A stretch of DNA of 64,000 bases. Source: Hanstruepera flava. GTDB taxonomy: Bacteria > Bacteroidota > Bacteroidia > Flavobacteriales > Flavobacteriaceae. The translations under genes and the position numbers were made by a program. The notes below the pieces were generated by a model. It searched no databases and was not told the origin of the DNA. It was given only the letters and a program-made list of their open reading frames with translations. This document shows, in pieces, positions 1,839 through 19,180 of the stretch. Each line of letters begins with the position of its first letter. Within the stretch, counting starts at the first letter, position 1. The stretch spans positions 248,001 through 312,000 of the forward strand of contig NZ_JALJCW010000001.1 in assembly GCF_023634025.1 (NCBI RefSeq). Direction: 5' to 3'.

Positions 1839-1894
1839 TTTTAAGTTGTCTTAAATTCAAAGTTCCGTAAAATTAGGATGCAACAGAAGTGCAT

Positions 1895-2311
1895 TTATTG
1901 TCCACTACACTTATCACATATACCTTTTACCACCAAGTTTACATTTTCTGCTACAAAACCTTCAGGAACTTTGATTTGTGGTATTTTATGTTCTGTTAAG
2001 CAAACAGTATTACCACAGATGCTACAATGAAAATGTAAGTGCAAATCTGTTTTAATATTGCAATTGCAACCTTGTTCACATAATGCGTATTTGGTAATAC
2101 CTGTACCATCGTCTATTTGATGCACAATATCGTTTTCCTCAAAGGTCTTTATTGTTCTGTAAAGCGTTGTTCTATCTGCTTTTCCAAACGCATTTTCAAT
2201 GTCGCTTAACGTTACAGCAATTTCTTTTTCTGCAAGAAATTTATAAATAAGCAACCGCATTGCCGTAACGCGAATACCTTTTGACTCTAATAATTGTTCT
2301 ATTGTTTCCAT
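1895..2311 (-). CDS. Fur-family metal-responsive transcriptional regulator
   Basis: A 138-residue protein with the Fur layout: an N-terminal winged helix (about residues 1-80, with the recognition segment DRTTLYRTIKTF) and a C-terminal dimerisation and metal-binding part holding HLHFHC, CSIC and a final CDKC. The two CxxC pairs suggest the structural zinc site of the family, and the His-rich segment the regulatory site. It starts 2 bp after the stop of the CzcB-like gene and precedes the P-type ATPase, so it is inside the operon it probably controls. A Zur-like zinc sensor is the likeliest subtype, but the ligand cannot be read from sequence. Confidence 0.93.
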   Translation of the reverse strand: METIEQLLESKGIRVTAMRLLIYKFLAEKEIAVTLSDIENAFGKADRTTLYRTIKTFEENDIVHQIDDGTGITKYALCEQGCNCNIKTDLHLHFHCSICGNTVCLTEHKIPQIKVPEGFVAENVNLVVKGICDKCSGQ

Positions 2312-2313
2312 AA

Positions 2314-3519
2314 TTAATGAGCGTGTTCTGCTTCTCCTTTTTTCATTTCTGCTATAAGGTAATACGCATTATTGTAAGCAAATTTGGTATTAGCGGATAC
2401 TTCTTCTGAAAAAGTAACTGCAATCCAATCTCCATCTTTTTCTCCAGTTATTACTTCTACAGGCTTAAAAGCCCAAATTTCACCTTCTTTTTCTACCGTA
2501 AAAACAAAAAATCTATCGCCATCTTTTACAATGGCACTTTCAGGCAATGCCTTTGTTAAAGCATTATCGGTTTGTATTCTTCCTTGAATGTACATACCTG
2601 GAATGAGATTACCTGATTTATTTTCTATTTCGGCGTGCACGTGAACCGCTTTAGGATTGTCTTCAAAGGTTTTGCTTACCGAGTAAATCTCGGCCGTAAG
2701 TTCTGCATCTGGTATGGATTGCACACTAAAAGTTACCTTTTGCCCTTGTTTTACTTTATAGACATCTTTTTCAAACACCATTAAATCTGCGTGCACGTGG
2801 TGTGTGTTTACAATCTCGAACAGTTCAGTTTGTGGTTCTACATATTGTCCTGTCTTAACCTCGACTTTTTGCACAAAACCTTCAATGGGGCTTCGTAGCG
2901 GAATTTGTTGAGCGATACTCCCATTACGAACTGATGCTGTATTGATATTCAAAATTTTCAGTTGAGCTGACAAACCATTTACTAATGCCGTTGAACCTTT
3001 GTATTCTGCTTCTGCCTTTTGGAAATTAGCACCAGATCCTACTCCTGCATCGTATAATTTTTTTTGGCGTTCGTAATTTTTCTTTAAAAGTTCGCTATTG
3101 CTATAAGCGTTTAGGTAATCGGTCTGTAAGGCTATAATATTTGGATGTGACAAATAAGCCACTACCTGACCTTTTTCAACTTTATCGCCTTCAATTACTT
3201 TTATGGATGTTACATTTGCTCCTATAACAGAAGTAATAGCAGCTTCGTTTTGGGGTGGTACTTCCAATGTGCCGTTTGCCTCAACATAGCCACTCATATT
3301 GCGTAAGCCCAAGGTGTCTATTTTCATTTTTAAGGCATCAAACTGTTGCTGATTAATCGTTACTTCGCCTTCTTCGTGGTGTTCTTCATTTTCACTGGTT
3401 TGTTCTGTTTTATCGTGAGAATGTCCATCATTTTCTGAATGGTCTTTTTTATTGCCACAAGACACCATAAAAAGTGCTGCAAAAATGACTGCGATGTATT
3501 TATATGCTGTTTTTTTCAT
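2314..3519 (-). CDS. CzcB/CusB-like efflux RND periplasmic adaptor, lipoprotein
   Basis: Membrane-fusion protein that joins an inner-membrane RND pump to an outer-membrane channel. I place the start at the ATG at 3519 (MKKTAYKY) because this gives a proper lipoprotein signal ending in the lipobox MVSC and begins just after the stop of the pump gene; a longer in-frame start at 3555 would overlap that gene and spoil the signal. After the lipid-anchored Cys comes a His/Glu-rich segment (HSHDK, EEHHEEGE) that may bind metal. Then follow a barrel-sandwich domain split by a coiled-coil hairpin and the beta-barrel and membrane-proximal parts usual for CzcB. A C-terminal HAH end is also present. It sits between pump and Fur regulator in one operon. 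Confidence 0.92.
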   Translation of the reverse strand: MKKTAYKYIAVIFAALFMVSCGNKKDHSENDGHSHDKTEQTSENEEHHEEGEVTINQQQFDALKMKIDTLGLRNMSGYVEANGTLEVPPQNEAAITSVIGANVTSIKVIEGDKVEKGQVVAYLSHPNIIALQTDYLNAYSNSELLKKNYERQKKLYDAGVGSGANFQKAEAEYKGSTALVNGLSAQLKILNINTASVRNGSIAQQIPLRSPIEGFVQKVEVKTGQYVEPQTELFEIVNTHHVHADLMVFEKDVYKVKQGQKVTFSVQSIPDAELTAEIYSVSKTFEDNPKAVHVHAEIENKSGNLIPGMYIQGRIQTDNALTKALPESAIVKDGDRFFVFTVEKEGEIWAFKPVEVITGEKDGDWIAVTFSEEVSANTKFAYNNAYYLIAEMKKGEAEHAH

Positions 3520-3523
3520 AATG

Positions 3524-6500
3524 TTATTGATTGAAATATTGTAATTGAAATGCACTTTCTAAATAATTGATTAAAGCGTTTTGAGCTTCCAGTTCTGACT
3601 GTACGGCTTCTTTTACCAATTGTGTAAAGGTGGTATAATCTATTTCTCCTTCCTTATACGCCAACAACGCTCCTGATTTCTGGTCTTTGGTTAATGGTAA
3701 CACTTGTGTTTTGTAAAATTCCCAAGACAGTTTCCATTTTAAATAATTTTCTTTTGCTTGTGCATATTGTGATTGTAATTCTTGTTTTTTGAATAACAAA
3801 TTACTTTCTGCAATAGCATTGTCAATTTTTGCCGATTTAATTCGGGCTTTATTTGATCCTGACAGGAATGGAATAGAAATTCCTGCTTGATAGGTATAAA
3901 AACCTGAATCGCCATTAACTTTTTGTAAACCACCCTGAAGGTTCAATTTTGGTAAATTATCAGCTTTTGCTGCCCTCAATTCTGCTTCGGCGACATTCAA
4001 TTGATTTTCTGAAACAGTAACCATTGGATGTTCATTTGTTGATAAGCTATCAGTTTCAATCGTTGCAATGTTTTCCAATTCTTCTGATACAGTATAAATT
4101 TCGTCTTCAAATAACCAAAGATTTAACTGTTGTATGGCTATGAGGTAATCTCTGTATGCCTGTACTTTTTTATTTTGAATTTGAAACACTTGATTTTTTG
4201 CCGCTGAATACTCCAATTTAGAAATGGCTTCCACTTCAAAGTTCAGCGTAACTGCTTGTTCAAAATTACCATAGATGGAATCAAGCTCTTTGTACAACTG
4301 AAAGTTTCTCATAGACTGATAACATTTTGCCCACGCTTTTTTCACTTCCAGTTCTACCTCCAATTCAGATAATTGCAATGCTTTTTGAGACAACTCAATG
4401 CGTTGTTGTTGCAGTTTTCGTTTTGCTCCGATTCCAAACACATCCATATTTGATTGTCCAACACCGACCGTTGTGTAGATTCCTGTTCCATCTTTCACTT
4501 CTTCACCTCCTGTAAAGATTTGAGTAGAACCAAAATCATATGCTGTGGATTTTAGGTTTTCTTGTTTGGTAACTTCCAATTGTTTTTGCTTCAATAGTGG
4601 ATAGTTCTTTTTAGATAAAGCAACAGCATCGTTTAAAGTGATTTTAGACAAGGTATCCGTGATTTGTTGTGCATTACTTCGAGTTGAAAACACAAACATT
4701 AAAACCAGTACTGCGGTTGCACTCACTATTTTTTTGTTTAGCTTTAACCTAAACGATTTATTCTCTACCCAATGATATAAAATAGGCAATACAAATAAGG
4801 TGAGTAATGTAGAAGTCAATAACCCACCAATAACTACGGTTGCCAACGGACGCTGTACTTCTGCACCTGCCGATGCTGAAACAGCCATTGGTAAAAAGCC
4901 CAATACATCAGTAAAAGCAGTGAGCATAATGGGACGTATTCTTCGCTTTGTACCTTCCAAAATTCGTTCTTTTAAATTGGTAACACCTTCTTCTTTCAAT
5001 TCATTTAAGCCACTTATCATTACCAAGCCGTTTAGTACGGCCACGCCAAACAATACAATAAAACCAACACCTGCCGAAATGCTAAAGGGCATATCTCGTA
5101 GCCACAACGCTACCACACCGCCAATGGTAGCCATTGGAATAGCAATGTATATCATTAAGGTTTGTGGTACTGATTTTAAAGCAAAGTATATCAGTACGAA
5201 AATAAGCAGTAAGGCAATAGGTACTACGGTTTGCAAGCGGTTACTGGCTCGTTCCAAATTTTCAAAAGCACCGCCATAGCGTACAAAATAGCCAGAGGGT
5301 AATTTCAATTGTGCATCTAATTTGGTTTTAATTTCTTCTACCAATGATTTTACATCACGCCCTCTTACATTTATACCTACATAGGTTCTTCTGTTGGTAT
5401 TGTCCCTACTAATTTGCATAGGTCCCGCTTTATAAGATATATCAGCTATTTCACGAAGTGGAATTTGTGCCCCAGAAGGCAAATTGATAAACAGATTTTG
5501 AATATCTGATATATCCTTACGGTTGTGTTGGTTTAAACGAACTACCAAATCAAACCGTTTTTCGCCTTCAAAAATAACGCCTGCATTTCCTCCGGCAAAT
5601 GCCGATTGCACCATTTTGTTAAGTGTGTTGATTTGCAGCCCGTATTGCGCCAACTTATCTCTATTGTAGGTTATGGTCATTTGTGGTAAGCCTGTTGTGG
5701 CTTCGGCTTTCATATCACCAATACCCGGTGTTCCTGCAATTATTTTAGTGATTTCCTCTGCCTTTTGGGATAAGACCTCGATGTCTTCGCCGTACAACTT
5801 AATGGCAATATCTTCACGCACCCCTTCAAGCAACTCATTAAAACGCATTTCTATGGGTTGGGTAAATTCATAATTGACTCCAGGGATAATTTCAACAGCT
5901 TCTTTCATTGCTTCAATAAGCTCATCTTTTGTCTCTACCGTAGTCCATTCACTTTTAGGTTTTAGGATTACAAATACATCTGCTAAATCCATAGGCATTG
6001 GGTCTGTTGGTATTTCAGCCACACCAATTCGACTAACTATTTTTTCAACTTCGGGAAATTTTGCCTTTACAATCTGCTCAATTTTGGTAGTGGTTTCTAC
6101 TGTTTCTGATAGTGAACTACCTGGTTTTAAAATGGCGTGGAATGCAATATCGCCTTCATCGAGTTGTGGGATAAATTCACCTCCCATTCGGGTAAACATA
6201 AAGACTGTTACAGCAAATAGAGCCACTGCAATCCCTGTAATTAATTTGCCTTTTAAAAGGGCTTTTTCCAATAAAGGTTTGTACTTATTTTCAACCCAAT
6301 GCACAAATTTATCACCATAAGATAATTTATCATTTTTTGGTGTTCTCAATACTAAAGCAGACATCATTGGTACGTAGGTAAGACACAAAACCATAGCTCC
6401 AATCATTGCGAAAATAAAGGTCAATGCCATTGGTTTGAACATTTTCCCTTCAATACCTTGTAAGGCTAAAATGGGAAGAAACACAATAAGGATAATAAGC

Positions 6501-7858
6501 TGACCGAAAAAGGCTGCATTCATCATTTTTTTGGAAGCCGATGCAGCAACCTCATCACGCTCCTTGTTTGTTATTTTTTTCTTTTTAAGTACTTGGGAAG
6601 CGATAAGAAATACAGTAGACTCCACAATAATTACTGCACCATCTACAATAATTCCGAAATCTATAGCTCCTAAACTCATCAGGTTTGCCCATACGTTGAA
6701 TACATTCATTAAAATAAATGCAAACAGTAAAGATAGTGGAATAGTTGATGCTACAATTAAACCACCTCGCCAATTACCCAACAAGAAAATGAGGATAAAA
6801 ATAACGATTAAAGCCCCTTCAATAAGGTTTTTAGCAACTGTAGAAGTGGTTTCACCAATTAACTTACTTCTGTCTAAAAGTGGTTCAATAACAACGCCTT
6901 CTGGTAACGATTTTTGAATTTGAACCATTCGCTCTTTAACATTGGCAATCACATCATTTGAATTTGCACCTTTAAGCATCATTACCAAGCCACCGACAAC
7001 TTCTCCTTCACCATCTTGTGTTAATGCTCCGTAACGAATGGCTGAACCAAATTGCAATGTTGCGATGTCACCAATGGTGATAGGCACATTATTAATGGTT
7101 TTAACCGTAATTTTTTTTATATCGTTTAAACTTCTTGCCAAACCTTCTCCACGTATAAAATTAGCCTGGTGGTTTTTTTCGATATAAGCACCACCCGTAT
7201 TTTGGTTGTTGGCTTCGAGGGCTTCAAATACATCTGTAATGGTAATCCCTATAGATTTAAGCTCGTTAGGGTCTACAGCAACTTCATACTGTTTTATTTT
7301 ACCACCAATAGCGTTGACCTCGACAACCCCAGGAACCATTGCCATTTGGCGTTGTACAATCCAGTCTTGCATTGTACGCACATCTGAAATGGAATATTTG
7401 TCTTTAAACTCTGGGGCTACTTTTAAAGTGTATTGATATATTTCTCCCAGACCTGTGGATATAGGCCCCATTGTAGGTTCGCCAAAACCAGCAGGAATTT
7501 GTTCTTTTACTTCGTTGAGTTTTTCTGCTACCAATTGCCTTGGAAGATATGTACCCATATCATCATTAAATACGATGGTTACTACTGACAGACCAAAGCG
7601 TGAAATTGAGCGAATTTCTTCCACATTGGGCAAATTGCTCATTGCCACCTCAACAGGATAGGTAACTATTTGCTCAATATCTTCTGTACCTAAATTTGGG
7701 GATTGCGTTATTACCTGAACTTGGTTGTTGGTAATATCGGGAACGGCATCTATGGGTACTTTTGTCATACTCCAGATACCTGCTCCAATAATGGTAAGCG
7801 TTAGCAAACCAATAATGAATTTATTATTGATTGAAAAATCAATGATTTTATTAATCAT
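3524..7858 (-). CDS. CusA/CzcA-family heavy-metal RND pump fused to a TolC-like outer-membrane channel
   Basis: About 1444 residues, roughly 400 more than a normal CzcA. The first ~1040 residues are a full RND pump (FSINNKFIIGLLTL start, two large periplasmic loops, PATIGG-like and GxxxVLNGLVMISGLNEL segments), which drives metal export with the proton gradient. The remainder resembles the outer-membrane efflux protein (CzcC/TolC) family, with long helices and internal duplication. Between them is a Lys-start hydrophobic stretch ending in RSNAQ, which looks like a signal peptide. I take the ATG at 7858 (MINKIIDF) rather than 7897, because RND pumps begin at this point. So pump and exit duct are encoded as one chain. 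Fusions of this kind occur in Bacteroidota databases under CusA/CzcA, so the fusion itself is not new. Confidence 0.93.
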   Translation of the reverse strand: MINKIIDFSINNKFIIGLLTLTIIGAGIWSMTKVPIDAVPDITNNQVQVITQSPNLGTEDIEQIVTYPVEVAMSNLPNVEEIRSISRFGLSVVTIVFNDDMGTYLPRQLVAEKLNEVKEQIPAGFGEPTMGPISTGLGEIYQYTLKVAPEFKDKYSISDVRTMQDWIVQRQMAMVPGVVEVNAIGGKIKQYEVAVDPNELKSIGITITDVFEALEANNQNTGGAYIEKNHQANFIRGEGLARSLNDIKKITVKTINNVPITIGDIATLQFGSAIRYGALTQDGEGEVVGGLVMMLKGANSNDVIANVKERMVQIQKSLPEGVVIEPLLDRSKLIGETTSTVAKNLIEGALIVIFILIFLLGNWRGGLIVASTIPLSLLFAFILMNVFNVWANLMSLGAIDFGIIVDGAVIIVESTVFLIASQVLKKKKITNKERDEVAASASKKMMNAAFFGQLIILIVFLPILALQGIEGKMFKPMALTFIFAMIGAMVLCLTYVPMMSALVLRTPKNDKLSYGDKFVHWVENKYKPLLEKALLKGKLITGIAVALFAVTVFMFTRMGGEFIPQLDEGDIAFHAILKPGSSLSETVETTTKIEQIVKAKFPEVEKIVSRIGVAEIPTDPMPMDLADVFVILKPKSEWTTVETKDELIEAMKEAVEIIPGVNYEFTQPIEMRFNELLEGVREDIAIKLYGEDIEVLSQKAEEITKIIAGTPGIGDMKAEATTGLPQMTITYNRDKLAQYGLQINTLNKMVQSAFAGGNAGVIFEGEKRFDLVVRLNQHNRKDISDIQNLFINLPSGAQIPLREIADISYKAGPMQISRDNTNRRTYVGINVRGRDVKSLVEEIKTKLDAQLKLPSGYFVRYGGAFENLERASNRLQTVVPIALLLIFVLIYFALKSVPQTLMIYIAIPMATIGGVVALWLRDMPFSISAGVGFIVLFGVAVLNGLVMISGLNELKEEGVTNLKERILEGTKRRIRPIMLTAFTDVLGFLPMAVSASAGAEVQRPLATVVIGGLLTSTLLTLFVLPILYHWVENKSFRLKLNKKIVSATAVLVLMFVFSTRSNAQQITDTLSKITLNDAVALSKKNYPLLKQKQLEVTKQENLKSTAYDFGSTQIFTGGEEVKDGTGIYTTVGVGQSNMDVFGIGAKRKLQQQRIELSQKALQLSELEVELEVKKAWAKCYQSMRNFQLYKELDSIYGNFEQAVTLNFEVEAISKLEYSAAKNQVFQIQNKKVQAYRDYLIAIQQLNLWLFEDEIYTVSEELENIATIETDSLSTNEHPMVTVSENQLNVAEAELRAAKADNLPKLNLQGGLQKVNGDSGFYTYQAGISIPFLSGSNKARIKSAKIDNAIAESNLLFKKQELQSQYAQAKENYLKWKLSWEFYKTQVLPLTKDQKSGALLAYKEGEIDYTTFTQLVKEAVQSELEAQNALINYLESAFQLQYFNQ

Positions 7859-7931
7859 AAGAATGGTTATAATGAATTTATAAATAGAGATAAGCAACCT
7901 ATTACAAAAATGGGTTACTTGAATTTATAAG

Positions 7932-7951
7932 ATACCTGCATACGCAGGTAT
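7932..7951. repeat. Perfect 8-bp-stem hairpin between DUF6660 gene and RND pump
   Basis: ATACCTGC (7932-7939), loop ATAC, GCAGGTAT (7944-7951). It lies just after the stop of the small DUF6660 gene and 74 bp before the pump start. There is no U-run on the minus strand side, so it is more likely an mRNA-stabilising or REP-like element than a terminator. Confidence 0.6.
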
Positions 7952-7954
7952 TCA

Positions 7955-8266
7955 TTAAACCTGTGGTGGTTGTAAAAGGGTAGTATTGAAGTCTTTTTCA
8001 AGACCATCAAAATAATAGAATAATTGAGTTGGAATAACAGTATTAGATATACTGTAATCTACAACATTAAAATGTGTAACGTGAATATGACAACAGTGGC
8101 ATTGGCAAAATGGTGAGCATAAATCTGCTCCTTGGTGTTGATGGTCGTTGTCTAACGCTTGAGAAATTTCAGTTTTAACCTCATTATCAGGTATACCATT
8201 ATCTTCACAAGGCACTAAATTGAGCGCAAAGATATAAATAGATAATATGAGTGCTAACACTTTCAT
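7955..8266 (-). CDS. DUF6660-like small exported Cys/His protein
   Basis: A 103-residue protein with an N-terminal hydrophobic signal (KVLALILSIYIFALNLVP) and a Cys/His cluster CSPFCQCHCCHIHVTHF at about residues 50-66, followed by a C-terminal part without clear features. Proteins of this sort, named DUF6660 to my knowledge, are found as the first gene of CzcA/CusA operons in Bacteroidota. The metal-ligand-rich core suggests a periplasmic metal-binding accessory or sensor, which is inference from composition and context. It is the first gene of the metal-efflux operon, with a TAnnTTTG box immediately upstream. Confidence 0.8.
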   Translation of the reverse strand: MKVLALILSIYIFALNLVPCEDNGIPDNEVKTEISQALDNDHQHQGADLCSPFCQCHCCHIHVTHFNVVDYSISNTVIPTQLFYYFDGLEKDFNTTLLQPPQV

Positions 8267-8271
8267 CGAGA

Positions 8272-8279
8272 CAAAGATA
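8272..8279 (-). promoter_or_regulatory. Possible -7 box of the metal-efflux operon
   Basis: On the minus strand the sequence TATCTTTG fits the Bacteroidota TAnnTTTG -7 element. It ends only 5 bp before the ATG at 8266, so the transcript would be nearly leaderless. No TTG sits at the ideal 19-21 bp distance (nearest at 14 and 25 bp), so this is tentative. Confidence 0.35.
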
Positions 8280-8312
8280 AAAATATTTTAATGCAATGGT
8301 GTTGCAAAGTAT

Positions 8313-10424
8313 TTATAAAAACCACAACGTATCTTTTGCATCCTCTGGAACACCGTTTTCAAAACGAGGTGCTATTTGGGCTACCATTTCGGGATATTTT
8401 ATGGTAATTGGCACATTTTGTTGGCGTAAGGATTTCCAATACAATCGGCTGAACTGATATACTTGGGTTAACAATTCTTCAATAACCTCAACATCTTCAA
8501 AAGCATCATCATCCGGACTGCTTATTTTTATTTTTATCGGAAATGGAAACCCATCAGTATCTGAATAAAAGCGGTCACTTGGATAACGTGCATTGTTAAA
8601 CAATAAGAATTGGTTTTCGGCAATGCGAATGTATGTACCACTAACCGGCATTAGTTTGTTATCCCAATTTAAATCGTAAGCAATGATGTCTTCAGATTCT
8701 GTTTTGTTGATGTTTAGTATATACAAAGGCACTCCTAATTTTAGTTTGTGCATCCCTTCTATTATGGGTTTTAACTCCTCATATTTCATTTCTTTATAAA
8801 AATGAATCACTACCTTATCTGCTTCTGCTACAGACGTAAAATCCCTAATAGCCTTTAAAATACTCCCTGCCAATAACTCTGTTTCGTTTTGGTTGAAGTA
8901 TTCAAAATTTCTAAACAAACCATTGTTTTGAAAACTAAAGGCACTTGCTATATATCTTCTGTTTTCGCCTTGATTGGTAAATGCTCCTACACCAATCACC
9001 AATTCTTTTTTATCGGTTACTGCCAACTTCCAAGGTGCACCACCTAATTTGGCGTGGATAGCCAATGCCATATTTTGTAATGAGAATTGGAAGTTGTATT
9101 GGTCTTGGATATTTACAATCATTTTTTCGTAATCGACCACTTGGGTTACAATGCCTTCATTTAAAAACAGTTCTTTAATGCGGATGTAAATTTCCCTATC
9201 GTCAGGATCTGGTGTAAACTTATCGAAAGGACTTATATAAAATGCTGCATACTTTACATTGTCGTGGTCAAAAGTTAAACTTTCAAGCTGTTCAACTATT
9301 TCAGGTATTGGGTCATTTTCGTTGGTAAATTCAATAAAGTGGTCTTTTGATGCTGTAGCCTTTATATTTACATAAGCTTCCAATCCTTTGTAATAGTTCT
9401 TTTCAGTATTTACTCCTTCTTTTAAATTTTGATAGAAAGACAGCACCGAATCTTTATGTGAGGTATGGCAAATGAAAAATATCTTGATATTTTGATTGCT
9501 TGGGCGTCTGTAAGGGTTTAGAATGTTCATTGCCTTTTTAGGCACTAAATGGGTTCTTTTGTTACCATATTGGTCTTTACCAAACTCTAATAAGCCCAAG
9601 TTAGGGTTGATGTGATTGATGCGATTGCCAGGAACATCTATAAAGGCATCTTGCTTAAAAGGAAACAAGGTCTTAAATTCTTCTGTAAACAAGTAGTTTT
9701 TAGCAAAAGTAGTGATGAGTGCTACATACTTTTGGTATCTGTTCTTTGGTCTGTCTGGTTCTTCAATAGGTATATTTAAAGCTCTTGCCAGTTGTAAATT
9801 GAATATTGGAAAGGCTTGAGTAAATTCTATGCTGTTGTAAAACTCTTCTTTATCCTCTGTATCAAGGTTCATTTGGTAATTGAAGGTTTTTTGACCATAC
9901 ACACAACGCTTAATATACTCTGTTTCCTCAATTTCCTTAACTGACTTTGTGAGAACTTTTGACGTACCATCATACGATACTACAAGTTCTGGTAAGTCTG
10001 TTAGTGTTGCAAACAGTATTTTGAATGAGAATTTATAGTATAAATTATAGTCTGCTGTATTTCCTTTTTTTGAAGGCATCCAAACCTGTACATCACGTAC
10101 AAAGTTTTTGACCACGATATAACCCTTTTCTAAAAAGTAGGTTTTTAATTGGTGTTTAAGGAATTGTTTGTATATGCGTAGTTCTTTTTCCTTTATTAAA
10201 TTTATTTTGATACTTGGGGCATTGGGTATTTCTTGGGTAAATGTGGTGAAAATATGCTCTAAACCTGATATATCTGTATCTGGAAACGCCTCTTTAATCT
10301 GCTTTGAAAACTTTGATTTATGGATTGGATGGCTACCCTCAATATCTTCTAACGATAAATATATGACAGGTGTGCTACTTGGCCATTTAAAATTGAGTAT
10401 GTTGGTTTTTAAGTGTTCTTGCAT
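8313..10424 (-). CDS. Long prokaryotic Argonaute, catalytically inactive PIWI (long-B-like)
   Basis: A 703-residue protein I assign to the Argonautes. Residues 1-270 are the poorly conserved N/L1/PAZ region, about 271-312 the L2 linker (PNLGLLEFG), 313-440 MID and 441-703 PIWI. The MID pocket for the guide 5'-phosphate is complete in the YK form: Y413 and K417 four apart, Q428 eleven residues later, and K459 in HAKLGGAPW, a family signature. The PIWI tetrad is lost: the first Asp is G480 (in VIGVG), the third is Y543 (in VIHFYKE), the last position falls at E679 (in IKYPEM); only an acidic finger (E514/E516) remains. It should bind a guide and target but not cut. The C-terminus ends in Leu-Trp-Phe-Leu, as in many family members. 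It is the third gene after XRE and HEPN-like genes, 46 bp downstream. Guide type (RNA or DNA) cannot be read. Confidence 0.9.
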   Translation of the reverse strand: MQEHLKTNILNFKWPSSTPVIYLSLEDIEGSHPIHKSKFSKQIKEAFPDTDISGLEHIFTTFTQEIPNAPSIKINLIKEKELRIYKQFLKHQLKTYFLEKGYIVVKNFVRDVQVWMPSKKGNTADYNLYYKFSFKILFATLTDLPELVVSYDGTSKVLTKSVKEIEETEYIKRCVYGQKTFNYQMNLDTEDKEEFYNSIEFTQAFPIFNLQLARALNIPIEEPDRPKNRYQKYVALITTFAKNYLFTEEFKTLFPFKQDAFIDVPGNRINHINPNLGLLEFGKDQYGNKRTHLVPKKAMNILNPYRRPSNQNIKIFFICHTSHKDSVLSFYQNLKEGVNTEKNYYKGLEAYVNIKATASKDHFIEFTNENDPIPEIVEQLESLTFDHDNVKYAAFYISPFDKFTPDPDDREIYIRIKELFLNEGIVTQVVDYEKMIVNIQDQYNFQFSLQNMALAIHAKLGGAPWKLAVTDKKELVIGVGAFTNQGENRRYIASAFSFQNNGLFRNFEYFNQNETELLAGSILKAIRDFTSVAEADKVVIHFYKEMKYEELKPIIEGMHKLKLGVPLYILNINKTESEDIIAYDLNWDNKLMPVSGTYIRIAENQFLLFNNARYPSDRFYSDTDGFPFPIKIKISSPDDDAFEDVEVIEELLTQVYQFSRLYWKSLRQQNVPITIKYPEMVAQIAPRFENGVPEDAKDTLWFL

Positions 10425-10470
10425 AGGTATTGAGGTGTTTTTGTATTTACATATAGTGAGTAATTATAGG

Positions 10471-11178
10471 TTATAAATAGACATCGTACTTTTCAAGTTT
10501 TTCAAATAGACCTAATATATTTTCAATAATTTCATCTATAAACTTTTTGTTATCAAAGAGTAAATAATGAGATTTAAATTCCCTGTCTCTTACATAAAAG
10601 GTATATCTACCTTTTGAAAATGCTTTTAATATTTCTAATTTTTTATCTTCACCAAATAAAATTGTGCTGTTATTATGAACGATACAGTTACCTACTCTTC
10701 GTAAATTATTAATAAACGACCAGTGAGGTTCTAAATTTTTCATATTTACACCCGCAGATCGTGTTAAAAACAACTTTGCTTTTTCAAATTCACTATTTCC
10801 ACGTAAATCATCCAAACCAAACTCTTTATTATGCATTAAGCAATAAGAATTACACACGTCTTGAATAGTCCGTTCTATAAAAGAGAACAATTGTGTAATC
10901 ATTGAAGCTCTGAAACTTTGTACAAAATCCCTATCAATTTCTATTAACCTATCAACTAAATTATCCTGAATATGAGTTAGTTCTTCATTAGAATAGGTTA
11001 ATGGATTATGGTCTATTTTATGCATTATTTTTTTATACTCTTCTTCTCCATTAGAAACTGATTGTTCGAAATGGTCTTCTACAAACTTTGCATAATTGCG
11101 AAAGGTTTGTAACTCCAAGTCTAAAAAGAAGATATTGTTATCTTTTCTGAAATTTGAAAGTGCGTTTATTCTTGACAT
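10471..11178 (-). CDS. HEPN-like protein encoded with the Argonaute
   Basis: A 235-residue, mostly helical, soluble protein. Residues 85-110 (SFRASMITQLFSFIERTIQDVC) and 150-170 (HWSFINNLRRVGNCIVHNN) resemble the two core helices of HEPN domains. Family members usually read LRxIRNxIVHN there; here the canonical Arg is G163, while R160/R161 upstream and N164 and H168 remain. Thus R161-x6-H168 fits the broad Rx4-6H rule but not the tight RNxxxH form, so RNase activity is uncertain. The ATG overlaps the stop of the XRE gene by one base (TAATG), which implies coupled translation, and the Argonaute follows after 46 bp. Position and fold make it the likely effector, or an RNA-binding partner, of the inactive Argonaute. 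Confidence is high that it is a gene, moderate for HEPN. Confidence 0.7.
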   Translation of the reverse strand: MSRINALSNFRKDNNIFFLDLELQTFRNYAKFVEDHFEQSVSNGEEEYKKIMHKIDHNPLTYSNEELTHIQDNLVDRLIEIDRDFVQSFRASMITQLFSFIERTIQDVCNSYCLMHNKEFGLDDLRGNSEFEKAKLFLTRSAGVNMKNLEPHWSFINNLRRVGNCIVHNNSTILFGEDKKLEILKAFSKGRYTFYVRDREFKSHYLLFDNKKFIDEIIENILGLFEKLEKYDVYL

Positions 11179-11477
11179 TATTTACATTTCTTTTCAATCT
11201 TACTAATTTTTTCTTCAGCTATTTTGAGGATTTCCGTACTGTCCTTTTCATTTCTTATCATCTGTACAATCTGTTCGGACATCCAAAGCTTAATTAATTT
11301 GTTCTCATCTTCTTTTAATTCTTTTGCAAATGCTATTACCTGCTCTCGTCTTGCCATACGGTTTCCTCGTTCAATCTTGCTTAAATAAGCGACATCCATA
11401 TTAATATTTGCAGCCATTTCCCTTAATAGCAAATTGCGCTTTTCGCGCAATGAGCGTATGTATTCGCCAAACTCCAT
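11178..11477 (-). CDS. XRE-family helix-turn-helix regulator of the Argonaute operon
   Basis: A 99-residue Cro/C1-type DNA-binding protein. The HTH is at about residues 5-60, with LLREMAANINMDVAYLSKIERG as helices 2 and 3 and the family-typical Lys-Ile-Glu-Arg-Gly turn, followed by a charged helical tail. It is the first gene of the XRE-HEPN-Argonaute operon. An inverted repeat (11488-11513) lies directly before its start, so it probably represses its own operon. Small XRE proteins often keep toxic defence modules silent or act as antitoxins; which of these applies here is open. Confidence 0.88.
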   Translation of the reverse strand: MEFGEYIRSLREKRNLLLREMAANINMDVAYLSKIERGNRMARREQVIAFAKELKEDENKLIKLWMSEQIVQMIRNEKDSTEILKIAEEKISKIEKKCK

Positions 11478-11487
11478 AATAGCATTA

Positions 11488-11513
11488 ATTAGACTTGTCA
11501 GATTTTGTCTAAT
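11488..11513. promoter_or_regulatory. Candidate operator of the XRE-HEPN-Argonaute operon
   Basis: A perfect 7-bp inverted repeat ATTAGAC (11488-11494) and GTCTAAT (11507-11513) with a 12-bp spacer, ending 10 bp before the XRE ATG. The spacer also repeats TTGTC at 11495 and 11505, ten bases apart. Position over the translation start region suits autorepression by the XRE protein; inference. Confidence 0.55.
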
Positions 11514-11628
11514 TTAAGAAAAGGAAGCTAAAGGAAAACAAAAAGATATAAACAGTTATTAACAGACAATGAGGAAGTTAAGGATTTAAGGAAACCTATA
11601 CTTAAATTCCTTTGTTTCCTCAATTTCC

Positions 11629-13383
11629 TTATAATGATTTTGCAGGATTAGAATAGTTATTATGTGCTTCTCTATGTATTAATCCAGCCTCAACAAATTT
11701 GGTGATATAGCCTTCTGCTGTTTTATGTGGAATGTTTTGTTTGGTTGCTAAATCTAAATACTCTTGTCTACTGAATTGCTTTGGTAAACTTTCTAAAAAA
11801 CGTTCTTTACGATTTAGGCGTTTTACAGCTTTTTGTTCAATTGGTAAATCATTAAATACCTTACTACTATGCTTTACTAAAATAGCAATGATTGTTAGTG
11901 CATTTTGGAAATCGACATCCTCACATTCTTTTACTTGATTAACATCACCATCTTCCATAATGCGAAATGCTGTAAATAACATCATTAATCGAAATGCTAT
12001 TAAGCCTAATCGTCTAATGGTTGCAATATACTCTTCCGGTTGTAAGTTGATGTATTTAGTCTGTAAGGATTCAAAAAATGTATTGAATTGCTGTTGTTGA
12101 GGTGTTGTTAGTCTTACCTCAATTTCAGGATTATTCTTCAATGTTTTATATAGGCCTAAAAACTCACTTCCTAATTGCGAATAGTAATCATCTAAACCAA
12201 CATTGTTATTGCTTGAAAATACATTTTTCCAAGTGGGCTTTATATTCATATAATAGAATATAAAGCGACTGAACAAACCATTTTCGGCATTCGGGATTAA
12301 TGTTGCCACTTGCTTGGGTGTTCCTGACAATACAGTAGACAGACACGGTTTTTCTATATCTACATACTCTCTATCAGTTCTACGATAATAACTAATGGTT
12401 TCGTGATGGAAGGCTTTACGAAAACCATCGCTATAATTACCGTAATCGCTTTTAAATGCTTGTGCTAATGTATCGCCTTCGGTTTCAAAAATCAATCCTC
12501 TGCCTTCATTATCAGAAATTAATTGATATACTCCAGTAACACTATTGTTGGCAGGGATAAACAACATTCTTTCGGGTGGCTTACCGGGTTTCTCTAAATT
12601 TTCATCTTTACCCTTGTTCATATTATACGTTGCCATTTCTGTATTAAATTGTTGCTTTAGTACTTTGGCTTGCTCACGTTTTAATTTATGTACAGGATCT
12701 ACCAAATTTTTAATTTGGTTAAGCCTGCCTTTACCTGCAGATGCAGGTGCAGTTACAAACAGATATAAATTAGCAAAAACTTTACGTTGGTCGTAGATAC
12801 CAAAGAGTTTGGGAAAGCAGGCACTAAAAGCCGTTAAAGCTCCTAACAACAAAATGTCCTTTTCCTCTTGACTGCTCGCAGGATTTACAACTTGTTGTAA
12901 AAACTGCGGTAAGCTATTAAATACCTCATCTGGTATTGTTGGCATTGCTTGCTCTGGTGCATCAACAACAGTTGCAACATTTGTTGCAACTTCGTTGTTG
13001 TTTTGTTGCTTCATCGGTTTTATACCTGCCTGATGTGCATAATGGTAAAACGTTGCAATGGTAATGCCGTGACCTTTTGCATTTAAACATTTGTTAAATT
13101 GTTCGTCACATTCTTTTGAATCATAACCTACATAGTTTTTGCTTATTCTGTGTAAATAATCTCTTCCTGTCTCTCCATATTCTTCAGCCAAAGCAAATCC
13201 TAAATCTCTCCAAGTGGCATAATTTCCTGTGATGTCTATACCTGATTGCTCAATTGCTGAAATGTAGGTTTCAATGTCATTATCAGCAACAGCAACAACA
13301 TTAGTTGCTGCGTTGTTGCTTGTTGGTTGCGGTTGTTCTTTTGGAACTTCCAACCATTCTTTTGGGTTAAATATTTTTGTCAT
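11629..13383 (-). CDS. PriCT_2 and DUF3987 domain protein (mobile-element replication)
   Basis: A 584-residue protein. After a short Gln/Asn-rich lead, residues ~35-125 match the primase C-terminal-2 type (TWRDLGFALAEEYGETGR, then CLNAKGHGITIATFYHYA), and residues ~150-560 the DUF3987 type, with a P-loop-like segment TAPASAGKGRLNQ near 210-222 and IFETEGDTLAQAF near 300. This is the standard helicase/primase-like protein of Bacteroidota integrative elements. Two near-identical linkers (ATNVVAVAD and ATNVATVVD) flank the PriCT_2 domain. Its ATG overlaps the stop of the BT4734-like gene by 4 bases. It is the last gene of the replication operon. Confidence 0.88.
   Translation of the reverse strand: MTKIFNPKEWLEVPKEQPQPTSNNAATNVVAVADNDIETYISAIEQSGIDITGNYATWRDLGFALAEEYGETGRDYLHRISKNYVGYDSKECDEQFNKCLNAKGHGITIATFYHYAHQAGIKPMKQQNNNEVATNVATVVDAPEQAMPTIPDEVFNSLPQFLQQVVNPASSQEEKDILLLGALTAFSACFPKLFGIYDQRKVFANLYLFVTAPASAGKGRLNQIKNLVDPVHKLKREQAKVLKQQFNTEMATYNMNKGKDENLEKPGKPPERMLFIPANNSVTGVYQLISDNEGRGLIFETEGDTLAQAFKSDYGNYSDGFRKAFHHETISYYRRTDREYVDIEKPCLSTVLSGTPKQVATLIPNAENGLFSRFIFYYMNIKPTWKNVFSSNNNVGLDDYYSQLGSEFLGLYKTLKNNPEIEVRLTTPQQQQFNTFFESLQTKYINLQPEEYIATIRRLGLIAFRLMMLFTAFRIMEDGDVNQVKECEDVDFQNALTIIAILVKHSSKVFNDLPIEQKAVKRLNRKERFLESLPKQFSRQEYLDLATKQNIPHKTAEGYITKFVEAGLIHREAHNNYSNPAKSL
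13291..13320. repeat. 9-bp inverted repeat inside the PriCT_2-DUF3987 gene
   Basis: AGCAACAAC (13291-13299) and GTTGTTGCT (13312-13320), 12-bp spacer, in the segment coding the first Asn/Ala-rich linker. A second GCAAC-rich patch with two GTTGCAAC palindromes is at 12971-12978 and 12983-12990 in the other linker. Codon choice for Asn, Ala and Thr alone could produce this. Confidence 0.45.
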
Positions 13384-14288
13384 AATGCTTGGTGTCTTTT
13401 ATGTAAAAAAGCTGTTGGGTCGTATGGTAAAAAACACGCTCTGGAAACGTCTTTACCTGATTGGTCAACCTCAATGTTATAGGTATGCTTAATGTAATTG
13501 GCTACTGCGGTGAAATACTCTGAATGTGTTACTTCTGAAACATCTATTCTGATAATCCATTTTAGACCATCACCGGAAGGTGATGTAAATAGCATTTCGG
13601 TTTCAAAATATTCATCATTCAATAATTGGGTTCTTAACTCTTGTAGATTATCTAAATGGTCAAAATCAATAGTTAATAGATTGGAATGCTCTAACAAATT
13701 GTTATCGTTTCGCTTTTCAAATGTTCCTGAAATAGTGACGTAATCAAAGCGATTAGCTTTGAATTTACGTGCTTCTTTTACATCGGTTATTGCTCTTAAA
13801 TCTTCAGTAATCCTTTTGTATTTATCACTTGTGATTAATGCAAATACTTGATGTAATCGCATAGTTTCCGCAGGAAACACATTGCGAACCGGGGCTTTGA
13901 AAAAGCTACAGTAAGCATACCAGGTATCATCTGGACCATTCAACCAATCTAATTCGCTTTTTTCCTTGACTTCTAAATTTAGGTGCAACTCTTGGTTAAT
14001 CTTATGCAACAATTCTTCTTCATCGGTTATTCTGAAATGGTACTGTGCAAAATCGAATACATCTCCGTTAAAAGTTTTTAGTTCTGTATCTCGATGTGTT
14101 GCTATAACGCCATCAATATGAATCCGTAAAGTTTCTTTACCACCATTAAAAGGGTTTCGGGTTATCCCGCAGTCCCTTCCTTTTACAGAAAGGACTGTTG
14201 TTTCAGGATAATAGTGTCTTAACACGTAGGCATAAATCTTTAAGCCGTAATGTGTTTTGTCTAAAATTGCCTCTCTACTTACTTCCAT
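13380..14288 (-). CDS. BT4734/BF3469-like protein (VirE N-terminal domain)
   Basis: A 302-residue protein that in Bacteroidota elements stands just before DUF3987 proteins. Its C-terminal half (about residues 130-300) shows the BT4734-like pattern: LTIDFDHLDNL, an acidic metal-binding-like strand as in primase/polymerase palms, then SPSGDGLKWIIRID and DVSRACFLPYDP. The N-terminal ~110 residues (VKGRDCGITRNPFNGG, then TLRIHIDG) look like a separate small domain. A role in element replication or priming is inferred from these acidic motifs and the neighbours. It overlaps both adjacent genes, so the unit is translated together. Confidence 0.82.
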   Translation of the reverse strand: MEVSREAILDKTHYGLKIYAYVLRHYYPETTVLSVKGRDCGITRNPFNGGKETLRIHIDGVIATHRDTELKTFNGDVFDFAQYHFRITDEEELLHKINQELHLNLEVKEKSELDWLNGPDDTWYAYCSFFKAPVRNVFPAETMRLHQVFALITSDKYKRITEDLRAITDVKEARKFKANRFDYVTISGTFEKRNDNNLLEHSNLLTIDFDHLDNLQELRTQLLNDEYFETEMLFTSPSGDGLKWIIRIDVSEVTHSEYFTAVANYIKHTYNIEVDQSGKDVSRACFLPYDPTAFLHKRHQAL

Positions 14289-14571
14289 CTTGATTGAAAT
14301 TATGGTTGTAGTAGTTATCTTGAAGCAATTGCTCTACATCGGACACTTTGTAATAAAACTTACCCTTTACTTTGCTATAAGGCAGTGTTCCGTTATCTCT
14401 AAAGGTCTGTAAGGTTCGCTTACTGATGTGTAAGGTCTGCAATACGTCTTGGTTGTCTATCCACGTATCTTTTAATACTTCCGCTCTCGAATGTCGTAAC
14501 AACTCGATACGTGCTTTTAAGTCCTTTATTTCTTGTGAGAGCGCCAAGAGTAAATCGATTATTTCAGTCAT
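14275..14571 (-). CDS. Helix-turn-helix domain protein (excisionase-like)
   Basis: A 98-residue protein with an N-terminal coiled coil (IDLLLALSQEIKDLKARIELL) and a MerR/excisionase-type winged HTH at about residues 36-85 (LHISKRTLQTFRDNGTLPYSKVKGKFYYKVSDVEQLL). Such pairs of small HTH proteins open the replication operons of Bacteroidota conjugative and mobilisable elements. It overlaps the BT4734-like gene by 14 bases and the preceding HTH gene by 4. Confidence 0.86.
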   Translation of the reverse strand: MTEIIDLLLALSQEIKDLKARIELLRHSRAEVLKDTWIDNQDVLQTLHISKRTLQTFRDNGTLPYSKVKGKFYYKVSDVEQLLQDNYYNHNFNQDGSK

Positions 14572-14867
14572 AACTTCACCGCTCCTTTCTTAATTAAGTA
14601 ATCGGCAGCTTGCTGTTCGATTTCATCTTGTGAATCGACACGGTTAGTTAATAACCATTGTTCTAATTCTACTCTGTTGAAATAAATCTTCTTACCATTT
14701 GGTTTGTAATGCGGAATGGTTCCGGTACTCGTAAGCTTGTATAAATGGGATTGTGACAATTCCAAAAATTTACAGGCTTCGTTAAAGCTCAATACGTTTT
14801 TTACAATAATGTTTCTGTCTAAAACGTGTGCTTCGATAATTTTAAGACGTTCTAATATTTCGTCCAT
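14568..14867 (-). CDS. Helix-turn-helix domain protein (excisionase-like)
   Basis: A 99-residue protein with a MerR/excisionase-like HTH at about residues 25-75 (LSFNEACKFLELSQSHLYKLTSTGTIPHYKPNGKKIYF followed by ELEQWLL). It is the first gene of the four-gene replication operon. An 18-bp palindrome lies 28 bp before its ATG and may be its own binding site. The C-terminal tail has no recognisable feature. Confidence 0.86.
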   Translation of the reverse strand: MDEILERLKIIEAHVLDRNIIVKNVLSFNEACKFLELSQSHLYKLTSTGTIPHYKPNGKKIYFNRVELEQWLLTNRVDSQDEIEQQAADYLIKKGAVKL

Positions 14868-14894
14868 AACTAATTAATTTTAAAAATAGAAATG

Positions 14895-14912
14895 GACATC
14901 TGGCCAAATGTC
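14895..14912. promoter_or_regulatory. 18-bp near-perfect palindrome before the HTH operon
   Basis: GACATCTGGCCAAATGTC, symmetrical except for one base pair, centred on TGGCCA. It is 28 bp upstream of the first HTH gene and in the only long gap between the replication and integration operons, so it is a likely operator. Confidence 0.55.
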
Positions 14913-14964
14913 ATTCTTGGTTTTCAAGAACAGGACAAAGGTTTAAAATTGGCTATCGGATTTT

Positions 14965-15020
14965 AGTAAGAGTGTAAAATGAGAGTAAGACAACAGTAAG
15001 ATTTCTTACTAATCTTACTG
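14965..15020. repeat. Cluster of five AGTAAGA motifs with a 10-bp-stem hairpin
   Basis: AGTAAGA occurs at 14965, 14984 and 14995 and, inverted, as TCTTACT at 15004 and 15013. The last three build a perfect hairpin: CAGTAAGATT (14994-15003), 7-nt loop, AATCTTACTG (15011-15020), followed on the plus strand by TTTTTT. It begins 5 bp after the stop of the unknown gene at 15025. It may end that transcript, although the U-run is on the wrong side, or serve as a protein-binding or origin site. Confidence 0.6.
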
Positions 15021-15024
15021 TTTT

Positions 15025-15975
15025 TTATTGCAGTTGTTGGATTGTTTTATCGATTTCTTCCTTTTCTTTCGGGCTATCAATCTTGTTTTTGTATAAATTT
15101 CCTGCTCTTAAAGCTGCTCCAGTTTTAGTTATAAATTTTCCTGAACGCTCTATAGTTGTTGGTTTCAAATTATGGAAATAAGATTTCAATTCTTTAACTA
15201 CATAGCTAAATTGTGTTGTTTCACATTGCAGGTAAATCTTGTAATCTATATTATTGAAGTTTTCTGCTAATAACAGTTTTTCCAATTGTTCAGGGGTAGT
15301 TCTATTGTCTAATAGTTCAATCCTAAAATGTAATTGCTTTATAACTGGAAGTAATTTTGAAGTATCTCTATTTTTATAACCAAATGAGGTTTTAGGCTTA
15401 CTCGTTGTTTTAGATAGCTTTTTAACCACCTCTTTTTTATCAGTTTCTAATTTTAGAAATACTGAAGTATCAAAATCAATATCGTTAAAGTACTTTTCTG
15501 CTATTTCTTGAATTGAGAATAATGCAGATTCTGAAAATTGTCCGTATTGCTCTTGTAGTTCAATGTATAAGCGAATTGCAGATACTTTTAAGTAATTGAT
15601 GATATAATCGGTGTCATTGCCTAAATTGTTACTTATAGACTGCTTTTTAATGTAGGTGGCAATATCCTTTAAATACTTATTGAACTTATTAAATTGTACG
15701 GTATAGTTATACTTGTTTTCGGGTTCCGTAGCATCTTTTGGGAATTGGGATTTTAATGTTGCTAATTCGGTTTCAGTATCATTTGAAATCAGCTTAAAGT
15801 AATATTCTTTTTTACTGTTTAGAGGTCTTTTAAAGTTTACTTTAAAAACCACATTAGTAGCTTTTGGTGTTTCCTTTAATTCAGAGTTCTGAAAATTAAA
15901 TTCTCTATCTGATCTATCGTCTCTATGTAAACCGTTGGTAATCGACACCAAACTTGCAAATACATTTCCATTCAT
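15025..15975 (-). CDS. Unknown protein encoded with the integrase
   Basis: A 316-residue soluble protein I cannot assign to a function. The C-terminal third (about residues 215-300: LDNRTTPEQLEKLL, then DYKIYLQCETTQFSYVVKEL and ITKTGAALRAGNLYKNK) resembles a conserved C-terminal region I recall from hypothetical proteins of Bacteroides and related genera. The central part is helical with a Lys/Thr-rich linker near residue 190. Its ATG overlaps the integrase stop by one base, so it is the third gene of the integration operon. A role in excision or element maintenance is possible, by context only. Confidence 0.75.
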   Translation of the reverse strand: MNGNVFASLVSITNGLHRDDRSDREFNFQNSELKETPKATNVVFKVNFKRPLNSKKEYYFKLISNDTETELATLKSQFPKDATEPENKYNYTVQFNKFNKYLKDIATYIKKQSISNNLGNDTDYIINYLKVSAIRLYIELQEQYGQFSESALFSIQEIAEKYFNDIDFDTSVFLKLETDKKEVVKKLSKTTSKPKTSFGYKNRDTSKLLPVIKQLHFRIELLDNRTTPEQLEKLLLAENFNNIDYKIYLQCETTQFSYVVKELKSYFHNLKPTTIERSGKFITKTGAALRAGNLYKNKIDSPKEKEEIDKTIQQLQ

Positions 15976-17069
15976 TATAAATCCAATTGAATACGGTTAG
16001 CAGCTTCTTTCTTTTTATCATCAATTACCTTTGCATAAATCTGTGTTGTTCTCAATTCTTTATGTCCTAATAATTTTGATACTGTGTAAATATCTGTACC
16101 CAAAGTTAACTGTAAAGTAGCATACGTATGACGCGCACAATGAAATGTTATATCTTTTGTAATACCTGCTTTCATCATCCATTGTTGTAATTTAAGGTTT
16201 GACCAGGCACTATAATGTAAACCTTCAAAAACTTTTGCTTCGGGTTTTCCTGCTTCACCTAATAATTCTCTTGCCTGTTCTGAAATTGGTAATGTTTCAG
16301 CACCTTTGGTTTTCTTTTGTCTGAAACGTATGTAATAACCCATTTCTTTAGAGTGTTGGATTTCTGACCATACCAATTTTTCAATATCTGACCAACGCAA
16401 TCCGGTAAGGGCTGAAAATATAAAAGCATTTTTTAATAATGGTAATTCACATTCTGTGTTAACTGCTTTTTGTAATTCATCAAGCGTTAAAAATTCTCGT
16501 TGAGGTTCTCCTTGTTTGAAATAATCTACACCATTAGCAGGATTGACTTTTAAAATACCATCCTTAACTGCTTGCTTTAAAGCTGCACAAAACTTACCAT
16601 AGTATGAATATTTAGAGTTTTGAGACAATTTTTTACCTGCTCTTGCCATAGCATCTTTGTCTAAATACTCTTTGAAACGCTCTACAAATGATTTATCCAA
16701 ATCTTGAAAACTAACATCTGTAGGACAAAAGGTCTTTAAATGTTTTAGCATACTGTTCCAATTGCCATAGTTGCCAGAGCTTGTATTTTTCTTTTCAGCT
16801 AAAGCTGTAACATAAGTAATAAAACTTCCTTTTAATTTCTCAATATCCTGAAACCCGTAAATACCGTTTTGTATTTCTATTTGGCGTTGTGCGCAAATGG
16901 TTTCTGCTAATTGCTTGGTTTTCTTGTTAACCTCTCTTTCGGTTTTAGTTTTAGGATTAGGTGTAAGGTATAAGCGTAAATACTCGGTTTTGCGTTTTCC
17001 TTTATGATAGTAATCTAAATACAGACTTATTTTATCATTCTTTTTGCGTTGTCTTAATGTTACTTTCAT
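15975..17069 (-). CDS. Tyrosine recombinase (integrase) of the mobile element
   Basis: A 364-residue site-specific recombinase. Residues ~1-65 form an arm-type DNA-binding domain (LRQRKKNDKISLYLDYYHKG), ~80-180 the SAM-like core-binding domain, and ~195-360 the catalytic domain. The catalytic set is complete: R225 (TGLRWSDI), a Lys in QKKTKG near 252, H310 and R313 (HCARH), H336 (LLGHKEL) and the nucleophile Y345 (QIYAKV). It is therefore probably active. It follows the zinc-ribbon/HTH gene by 6 bp and points away from mnmE, whose 3' end 590 bp away is the likely attachment site. Confidence 0.95.
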   Translation of the reverse strand: MKVTLRQRKKNDKISLYLDYYHKGKRKTEYLRLYLTPNPKTKTEREVNKKTKQLAETICAQRQIEIQNGIYGFQDIEKLKGSFITYVTALAEKKNTSSGNYGNWNSMLKHLKTFCPTDVSFQDLDKSFVERFKEYLDKDAMARAGKKLSQNSKYSYYGKFCAALKQAVKDGILKVNPANGVDYFKQGEPQREFLTLDELQKAVNTECELPLLKNAFIFSALTGLRWSDIEKLVWSEIQHSKEMGYYIRFRQKKTKGAETLPISEQARELLGEAGKPEAKVFEGLHYSAWSNLKLQQWMMKAGITKDITFHCARHTYATLQLTLGTDIYTVSKLLGHKELRTTQIYAKVIDDKKKEAANRIQLDL

Positions 17070-17075
17070 AGGATG

Positions 17076-17441
17076 CTAATTAAAAAGGTTTTCTATTTGC
17101 CATCTGGCTACAATACGTTTTCTACCAAAAGGGACTGCTTTTAAACGTCCTTGTTGAATCATTCTTTGAATGGTCCATCTACTAACACCAATCAATTGTG
17201 AGGCTTCAGTAACGCTTAAAAAATCTTTATTATTTACCGTGTTGAGGTTTGGAACTTGAACAGCTTCTTTTTGCTGCTGCATATCCTTTGCAAGAGTAGC
17301 TTGTACTTTTTCTTTACGCTTACGTGCCTTATAGGCCTTTTTAGCGCAAGTATCACCACAGTATTTAGTTACTGTTGTACGTGCTGTAAAAGCATTACCG
17401 CAATGTTTACAGATTTTTGGGATGTATAAATTACTGCTCAT
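17076..17441 (-). CDS. Zinc-ribbon plus helix-turn-helix DNA-binding protein (excisionase-like)
   Basis: About 121 residues from the ATG at 17441; a longer start at 17495 would run through the ATGGTGC repeats and adds a poor Met-His-His leader. N-terminal Cys pairs (CKHC at about 12-15, CGDTC 14 residues later) make a zinc ribbon. A basic, Gln-rich linker follows, then an excisionase-type HTH (LSVTEASQLIGVSRWTIQRMIQQGRLKAVPFGRKRIV). First gene of the integration operon, so a directionality factor or regulator of the integrase is the natural guess. Confidence 0.82.
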   Translation of the reverse strand: MSSNLYIPKICKHCGNAFTARTTVTKYCGDTCAKKAYKARKRKEKVQATLAKDMQQQKEAVQVPNLNTVNNKDFLSVTEASQLIGVSRWTIQRMIQQGRLKAVPFGRKRIVARWQIENLFN

Positions 17442-17443
17442 AA

Positions 17444-17490
17444 ATGGTGCTTTATGTAGCGTTATGGTGCAACGTGGGGCAATATGGTGC
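17444..17490. repeat. Three ATGGTGC repeats at exact 20-bp spacing
   Basis: ATGGTGC starts at 17444, 17464 and 17484, in the leader directly before the zinc-ribbon/HTH gene. The 20-bp period is close to two helical turns, so proteins bound there would line up on one face of the DNA. Candidate operator or recombination-accessory site. Confidence 0.6.
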
Positions 17491-17512
17491 ATCATTTCGC
17501 CAATCTTTTAGC

Positions 17513-17564
17513 CAACAGATTTGGGCAACAAATCCGTATTTAAGGCAACAGATATACAACAAAT
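17513..17564. repeat. Four CAACARAT repeats between integrase operon and mnmE
   Basis: CAACAGAT at 17513 and 17546 alternates with CAACAAAT at 17526 and 17557, with a fifth partial copy CAACAAAA at 17588. The set reads as two copies of a two-unit module (spacings 13 and 11). The repeat at 17557 overlaps the -7 box and the partial one overlaps the -33 box of the promoter. Likely arm-type integrase or excisionase binding sites. Confidence 0.6.
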
Positions 17565-17590
17565 TTAGTTAAAAAAGAGCAAAAAAGCAA
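17560..17590 (-). promoter_or_regulatory. Bacteroidota-type promoter of the integration operon
   Basis: On the minus strand TTG (17590-17588), a 20-bp spacer, and TAAATTTG (17567-17560) match the TTG-N19-21-TAnnTTTG pattern. It would transcribe the zinc-ribbon/HTH, integrase and unknown genes with a leader of about 110 nt holding the CAACARAT and ATGGTGC repeats. Confidence 0.65.
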
Positions 17591-17651
17591 CAAAAAAGAG
17601 AAGATAAAAACTCGTAAAGTCAATAAAATCAATACATTAACAAACAAAAGA

Positions 17652-17680
17652 AAGTAAGTTACTTCCCGATACAAAAGTTA
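17652..17680. other. Presumed attachment site (attL/attR) at the 3' end of mnmE
   Basis: The element side ends at the stop of mnmE. A perfect inverted repeat AAGTAA-G-TTACTT (17652-17664) spans the stop codon, and the adjoining codons encode the invariant MnmE end FCIGK. SGI1-type islands recombine in exactly these last ~18 bp of trmE/mnmE. The other copy of the core was not found in the window and would lie left of position 1. Confidence 0.55.
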
Positions 17681-19071: not shown

Positions 19072-19153
19072 ACCACAAAAATAGTAAATAGAACGCACTT
19101 TAGGTCAAACCGATATTAGCTAATTCTTAACAAGTAATAAGTGTTTTATCTGT

Positions 19154-19161
19154 TATATTTG
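19154..19161 (+). promoter_or_regulatory. -7 box of the TlpA-like gene
   Basis: TATATTTG fits TAnnTTTG and lies 19 bp before the ATG at 19181. No TTG is placed well for a -33 element, so only half of the promoter is supported. Confidence 0.5.
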
Positions 19162-19180
19162 CACATCTAAAACAAAACAC

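Follow-up and report, generated by a model that had tools for sequence, protein, structure and literature searches.

A catalytically inactive long-B Argonaute carried with varying defence neighbours by an integrative element at mnmE in flavobacteria

Organization of the locus

Within the window, by which we mean the whole 64,000-nt stretch of DNA that was analysed, an intact open reading frame for an Argonaute (Ago) lies between metal-efflux genes and the genes of an integrative element (Table 1). Because the stop codon of the XRE gene overlaps the start codon of the HEPN-like gene, these two form one operon, to which Ago probably belongs as well. The gene of the VirE-N/BT4734 type is part of the replication module of the element.

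Table 1. Features of the Ago-carrying element in the window.
Feature	Position	Strand	Remark
Metal-efflux cargo: Fur-like, CusB-like, CzcA-like, DUF6660	1895..8266	(-)	downstream of Ago
Argonaute, catalytically inactive, single-chain, long-B type	8313..10424	(-)	703 aa
HEPN-like protein	10471..11178	(-)	235 aa, 46 bp ahead of the Ago start; Gly in place of motif R163
XRE-type HTH regulator	11178..11477	(-)	stop overlaps HEPN-like start (TAATG)
PriCT_2/DUF3987 replication protein	11629..13383	(-)	element backbone
BT4734-like (VirE-N type) primase-like protein	13380..14288	(-)	element backbone; likely 'og_54'
Two HTH_17 (excisionase-like) genes	14275..14867	(-)	element backbone
DUF6617 protein	15025..15975	(-)	element backbone
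Tyrosine integrase	15975..17069	(-)	of the element
139-aa element gene	17076..17495	(-)	flanked by integrase and mnmE; C-terminus looks HTH-like
Candidate attachment core, TTTGTATCGGGAAGTAA	17659..17675	(-)	mnmE 3' end

The insertion site of the element is the mnmE 3' end. The distance from this end to the integrase was 583-604 bp, mostly 593-594 bp, in 30 of the 33 loci that include mnmE. A near-copy of the mnmE end, with two differences in 17 bp, lies beyond the left edge of the window at a distance of about 31.7 kb (G000:C1:233996) and is a candidate for the other end of the element; Ago and the metal-efflux genes sit between the two. The near-copy came from a search with a pattern derived from the mnmE end and is one of four matches in the genome, so it could have arisen by chance. 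An unspecific search of positions 1-20000 for direct repeats that could be att sites gave no clear pair. In four other loci, a conserved short protein (MGKIxQGILGGLSGKVGN...) was observed near the presumed far end of their elements (L133:6181-6822, L171:3848-4489, L172:15827-16468 and L028:17180-17821).

Linkage of Ago to the element

The scan of 84,980 species genomes returned 391 stretches encoding Ago relatives. The best 80 of the 391 were used, and these were almost all from Bacteroidota by title; most of the closest Ago loci had the same gene order as the window. Ago and its varying defence neighbours are carried by a mobile element through many marine flavobacteria.

Linkage was counted in a sample of 299 family genomes, with Ago accepted at E below 1e-100. 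Ago was present in 27 genomes. Each of these also carried the element integrase (identity about 60% or higher), and the genomes of this sample without such an integrase had no Ago. The two genes shared a contig in 26 of the 27, about 5-22 kb apart. Ago was missing from 7 of the 34 genomes with the integrase; two of these stretches end at a contig edge (G623 and G567), and the remaining ones carry more distant elements, with related islands in G464, G474 and G603. We concluded that Ago is a near-constant gene of the element at the mnmE 3' end.

Ago is tied more tightly to the backbone than the changing genes beside it are, which would fit a function that serves the element, such as a part in its replication or transfer alongside the primase and DUF3987 genes, and not defence. 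We consider such a function very unlikely, given that the three related integrase islands exist without Ago and that defence is the role of the long-B pAgos examined to date (PMC10620215).

Fold and class of Ago

Pfam placed a Piwi domain at residues 408-685 (E 8.5e-13), and the full-length pAgo model of PADLOC matched the protein with E 1e-282. A fold model was predicted by AlphaFold2 from a 35-sequence alignment, with pLDDT 88.8 and pTM 0.86. The nearest solved structure to this model, over its full length, was RsAgo, which came first in Foldseek (E 2.6e-29) and gave Z 34.7 over 624 residues at rmsd 4.2 in VIA-align (aligned 3-703); the next protein was AfAgo, with Z 29.8, covering MID-PIWI only. 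N-L1-L2-MID-PIWI are predicted on a single chain, as in RsAgo, and the stretch from L1 to L2 (reduced PAZ, PAZ*) appears short by the look of the model alone. The best sequence-profile matches were AfAgo, RsAgo and EcAgo, all long-B, with AfAgo at the top in PDB. RsAgo was absent from the tblastn matches in the plasmid collection.

Since the aspartates are lost as in RsAgo (see below) and RsAgo is also the nearest structure, the ranking of profiles and of the predicted fold places the protein as a single-chain long-B pAgo. Every long-B member lacks the catalytic tetrad, and nearly all have the YK motif (PMC6299218). Ago therefore joins an already known clade, which is defined by the loss of slicing. 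The sequence-only reading had spoken of a selective loss of cutting; taken as a special event this is not supported, since the whole clade and RsAgo share the loss as a defining long-B trait (PMC6299218).

Guide pocket and catalytic site

The reading frame, its strand and length and the MID pocket described from the letters were all recovered. Y413, K417, Q428 (+11) and K459 were invariant in the alignment of 87 relatives (87/87), and Y413-x3-K417, Q428 and K459 align with the YxxxK, Q and K of RsAgo. When TtAgo, whose sequence was taken from its gene on plasmid pTT27, was aligned, R418, K422, Q433 and K457 fell on the same pocket; TtAgo has Arg at the Tyr413 position, and the proposed equivalence of its K422 and Q433 with K417 and Q428 was borne out.

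The two replacements proposed for the PIWI domain were also found. G480 aligns with the first Asp of the tetrad (TtAgo D478) and was kept in 85 of the 87 relatives, with Asn in the other two, and Y543 aligns with the third (TtAgo D546) and was kept in 83 of 87. Beyond these two positions, the alignment places E679, an acidic residue kept in 81 of 87, at the fourth (TtAgo D660). The Glu-finger position (TtAgo E512, roughly E516 in Ago) varies within the clade in a region where the alignment is weak. Judged from the alignment, the first and third Asp are clearly lost and the Glu finger is probably lost, and the change at the fourth position appears conservative.

Selection on Ago

The loss of catalytic residues, together with split or truncated relatives, could be taken to mean that Ago is a decaying gene or a pseudogene. 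However, the pocket was invariant, the open reading frame was intact in most relatives, and the window Ago gave dN/dS of 0.03-0.10 against close relatives, similar to the DUF3987 gene of the element. A value of 0.05 was obtained even between two loci with nothing directly upstream of Ago (L068 and L073). By these ratios, Ago is under strong purifying selection and so is not decaying; its substitutions are ancestral and have been maintained. Decay is contradicted by this selection test and is scarcely tenable; the earlier statement that this is not a decayed gene was upheld. Split or N-terminally truncated Ago genes were seen in L079 (10001-12112), L101 and L102.

Variable genes directly upstream of Ago

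The slot between XRE and Ago was analysed in 61 elements with an anchor gene. It held the gene of a 107-aa protein in 10 elements (and of a second type in one more), ApeA with a HEPN domain in 10, AbiD in 8, a type IIG R-M gene in 6, a 355-aa protein in 4, the HEPN-like gene in 3 and others in 10, and was empty in 9. The slot gene directly adjoins Ago, mostly at 17-46 bp, with XRE first. Several copies share a short leader ahead of the Ago start although their upstream genes differ, suggesting an exchange of modules up to the Ago leader. The 107-aa protein (L048:9445-9768), among the two commonest direct upstream neighbours of Ago, had only a weak CARF-HEPN match.

No effector candidate was found on either side of Ago in L068, L125 and L126, where Ago was intact. 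In L073, where the slot was empty, a gene downstream of Ago encodes a 797-aa protein that weakly matches DrmE, so this locus is not entirely without a candidate. Because Ago was kept where the slot is empty, it is unlikely to need one dedicated effector beside it of the kind seen in BPAN; Ago may use partners elsewhere in the genome. Exchangeable defence cargo is the best description of the variable upstream gene, here the HEPN-like one, which may be coupled to Ago.

A broader form of coupling would be that Ago activates whichever abortive-infection gene occupies the slot (HEPN-like, ApeA, AbiD or a membrane protein), the effectors being interchangeable. The close placement behind XRE and the many slot families of HEPN or Abi types agree with this. 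We hold it to be distinctly unlikely, as one interface for several unrelated folds is hard to expect, ApeA, AbiD and IIG R-M are listed as stand-alone defence genes, and 9 of the 61 slots are empty.

The HEPN-like neighbour

Across the 299 genomes, the HEPN-like profile picked up 14 strong copies. Twelve of them adjoin Ago within 100 bp on the same strand, and two lie without Ago in similar metal islands. There are two subfamilies, one upstream of Ago (235 aa) and one downstream (about 244 aa). Twelve of the 13 aligned sequences retain the motif R163-N164-x-x-V167-H168 (RX4H); the window copy has G163. R161 of the window copy would give RX6H, and this residue is not conserved in the family. 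The Gly163 codon and its L049 counterpart differ at more than one base, which makes a lone sequencing error an improbable cause, and the window protein may lack catalytic activity in this genome. The gene evolves faster than Ago, with dN/dS 0.23 between the window and L049.

With VIA-align, HEPN chains (Csm6, HepT, AF_0298) were frequent among the top rows for the helical bundle predicted for this protein, with Z of only 6-8, so that the model is only suggestive of a HEPN fold. Foldseek with the model gave nothing significant, Pfam gave nothing above cut-off, the PDB sequence search gave nothing convincing, and no relatives were found in the viral contigs scanned. PADLOC had no match for the window copy and a weak RTasHEPN match for the L049 copy (E 6e-4).

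If this neighbour were the dedicated toxic partner of Ago, guide-directed DNA binding by Ago would activate the adjacent HEPN-like RNase and lead to cell shutdown, as in BPAN. The repeated placement beside Ago in two subfamilies and the retained motif speak for such a pair, as do HEPN effectors reported beside AfAgo-type long-B pAgos (PMC10954474). But the gene is absent from most Ago loci, it has Ago-free copies, and the window copy has lost the motif Arg and diverges faster than Ago, making the pair unlikely. In view of the empty slots and the Ago-free copies, the HEPN-like protein was set aside as an obligatory partner of Ago. The sequence-only reading had taken the loss of cutting to indicate a sensor. 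This step goes by analogy with BPAN; non-cutting, being ordinary for the clade, does not in itself point to a sensor. Against a simple coupling of sensor and effector, the adjoining gene is exchanged for members of unrelated families or is missing while Ago is conserved.

A second HEPN-like gene was observed about 9 bp past the Ago stop in about a dozen loci (e.g. L071:12125-13966), usually followed by DUF4238. This pair also occurs without Ago in L169.

Relation to known systems and proposed role

RsAgo (PDB 5awh/6d8a) shares with the window Ago the full-length fold, the YK-type pocket, Gly at the first Asp and the absence of the third Asp, at about 16-17% identity. A predicted nuclease gene is reported downstream of RsAgo (PMC10620215), whereas the window Ago has none; its downstream neighbours are DUF6660 and CzcA, and its upstream neighbours HEPN-like and XRE. 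The BPAN, BPAS and BPAM systems likewise have a catalytically inactive long-B pAgo, but with a fixed downstream partner of the PD-(D/E)XK, SIR2 or og_100 membrane type, none of which lies directly downstream of the window Ago. AfAgo, the top PDB profile match, belongs to a group for which HEPN proteins are reported among the Af1317-type effectors, and is split from its N-L1-L2 half, unlike the single chain here.

Ago is a conserved protein and, judged from its pocket, in all likelihood binds guides. We propose that it would load a 5'-phosphorylated guide, a short RNA by analogy with RsAgo and AfAgo, and bind complementary DNA without cutting. On behalf of the element and its host, it would thereby recognise and suppress competing DNA, such as plasmids, phages and rival elements. 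It would not rely on one dedicated neighbour, either because binding alone interferes or because the partner is not fixed beside Ago. The guide type, the DNA target and the outcome are the parts of this model that we infer. In a foreign host, RsAgo by itself was reported to reduce the expression or the content of plasmids (PMC10620215). Two points count against an effector-free action: an effector mediates the action of the long-B pAgo systems that Song 2023 tested (PMC10620215), and the adjoining position of 12 of the 14 strong HEPN-like copies fits a coupling. Overall, we give a probability of roughly one half to Ago being a near-constant element gene that acts as a guide-directed DNA binder against competing DNA without one dedicated neighbouring effector. 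More tentatively, Ago could be the core weapon of the element in conflicts between mobile elements, without a dedicated effector and with unrelated defence genes exchanged alongside it.

What is new here is the genomic context, namely the linkage to the element and a natural set of differing neighbours. The same Ago with HEPN-like, ApeA, AbiD or nothing beside it provides natural test pairs, which make it directly testable whether a non-cutting Argonaute can defend without an effector of its own.

One long-B subclade has a VirE-N gene (og_54) usually 2-8 genes upstream, with its role left open and the group marked for later study (Song 2023, PMC10620215; orthogroups of Ryazansky 2018). It shares with the present clade an inactive PIWI and a VirE-N/BT4734 gene a few genes upstream, and by this likeness in description the present clade is most likely the og_54 subclade. 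The VirE-N gene would be explained here as a primase of the element and not as an effector, and the og_54 gene is most likely the primase of the Ago-carrying element. Song 2023 left the og_54 long-B pAgos without a function, and our data suggest that VirE-N is present beside them as the element primase.
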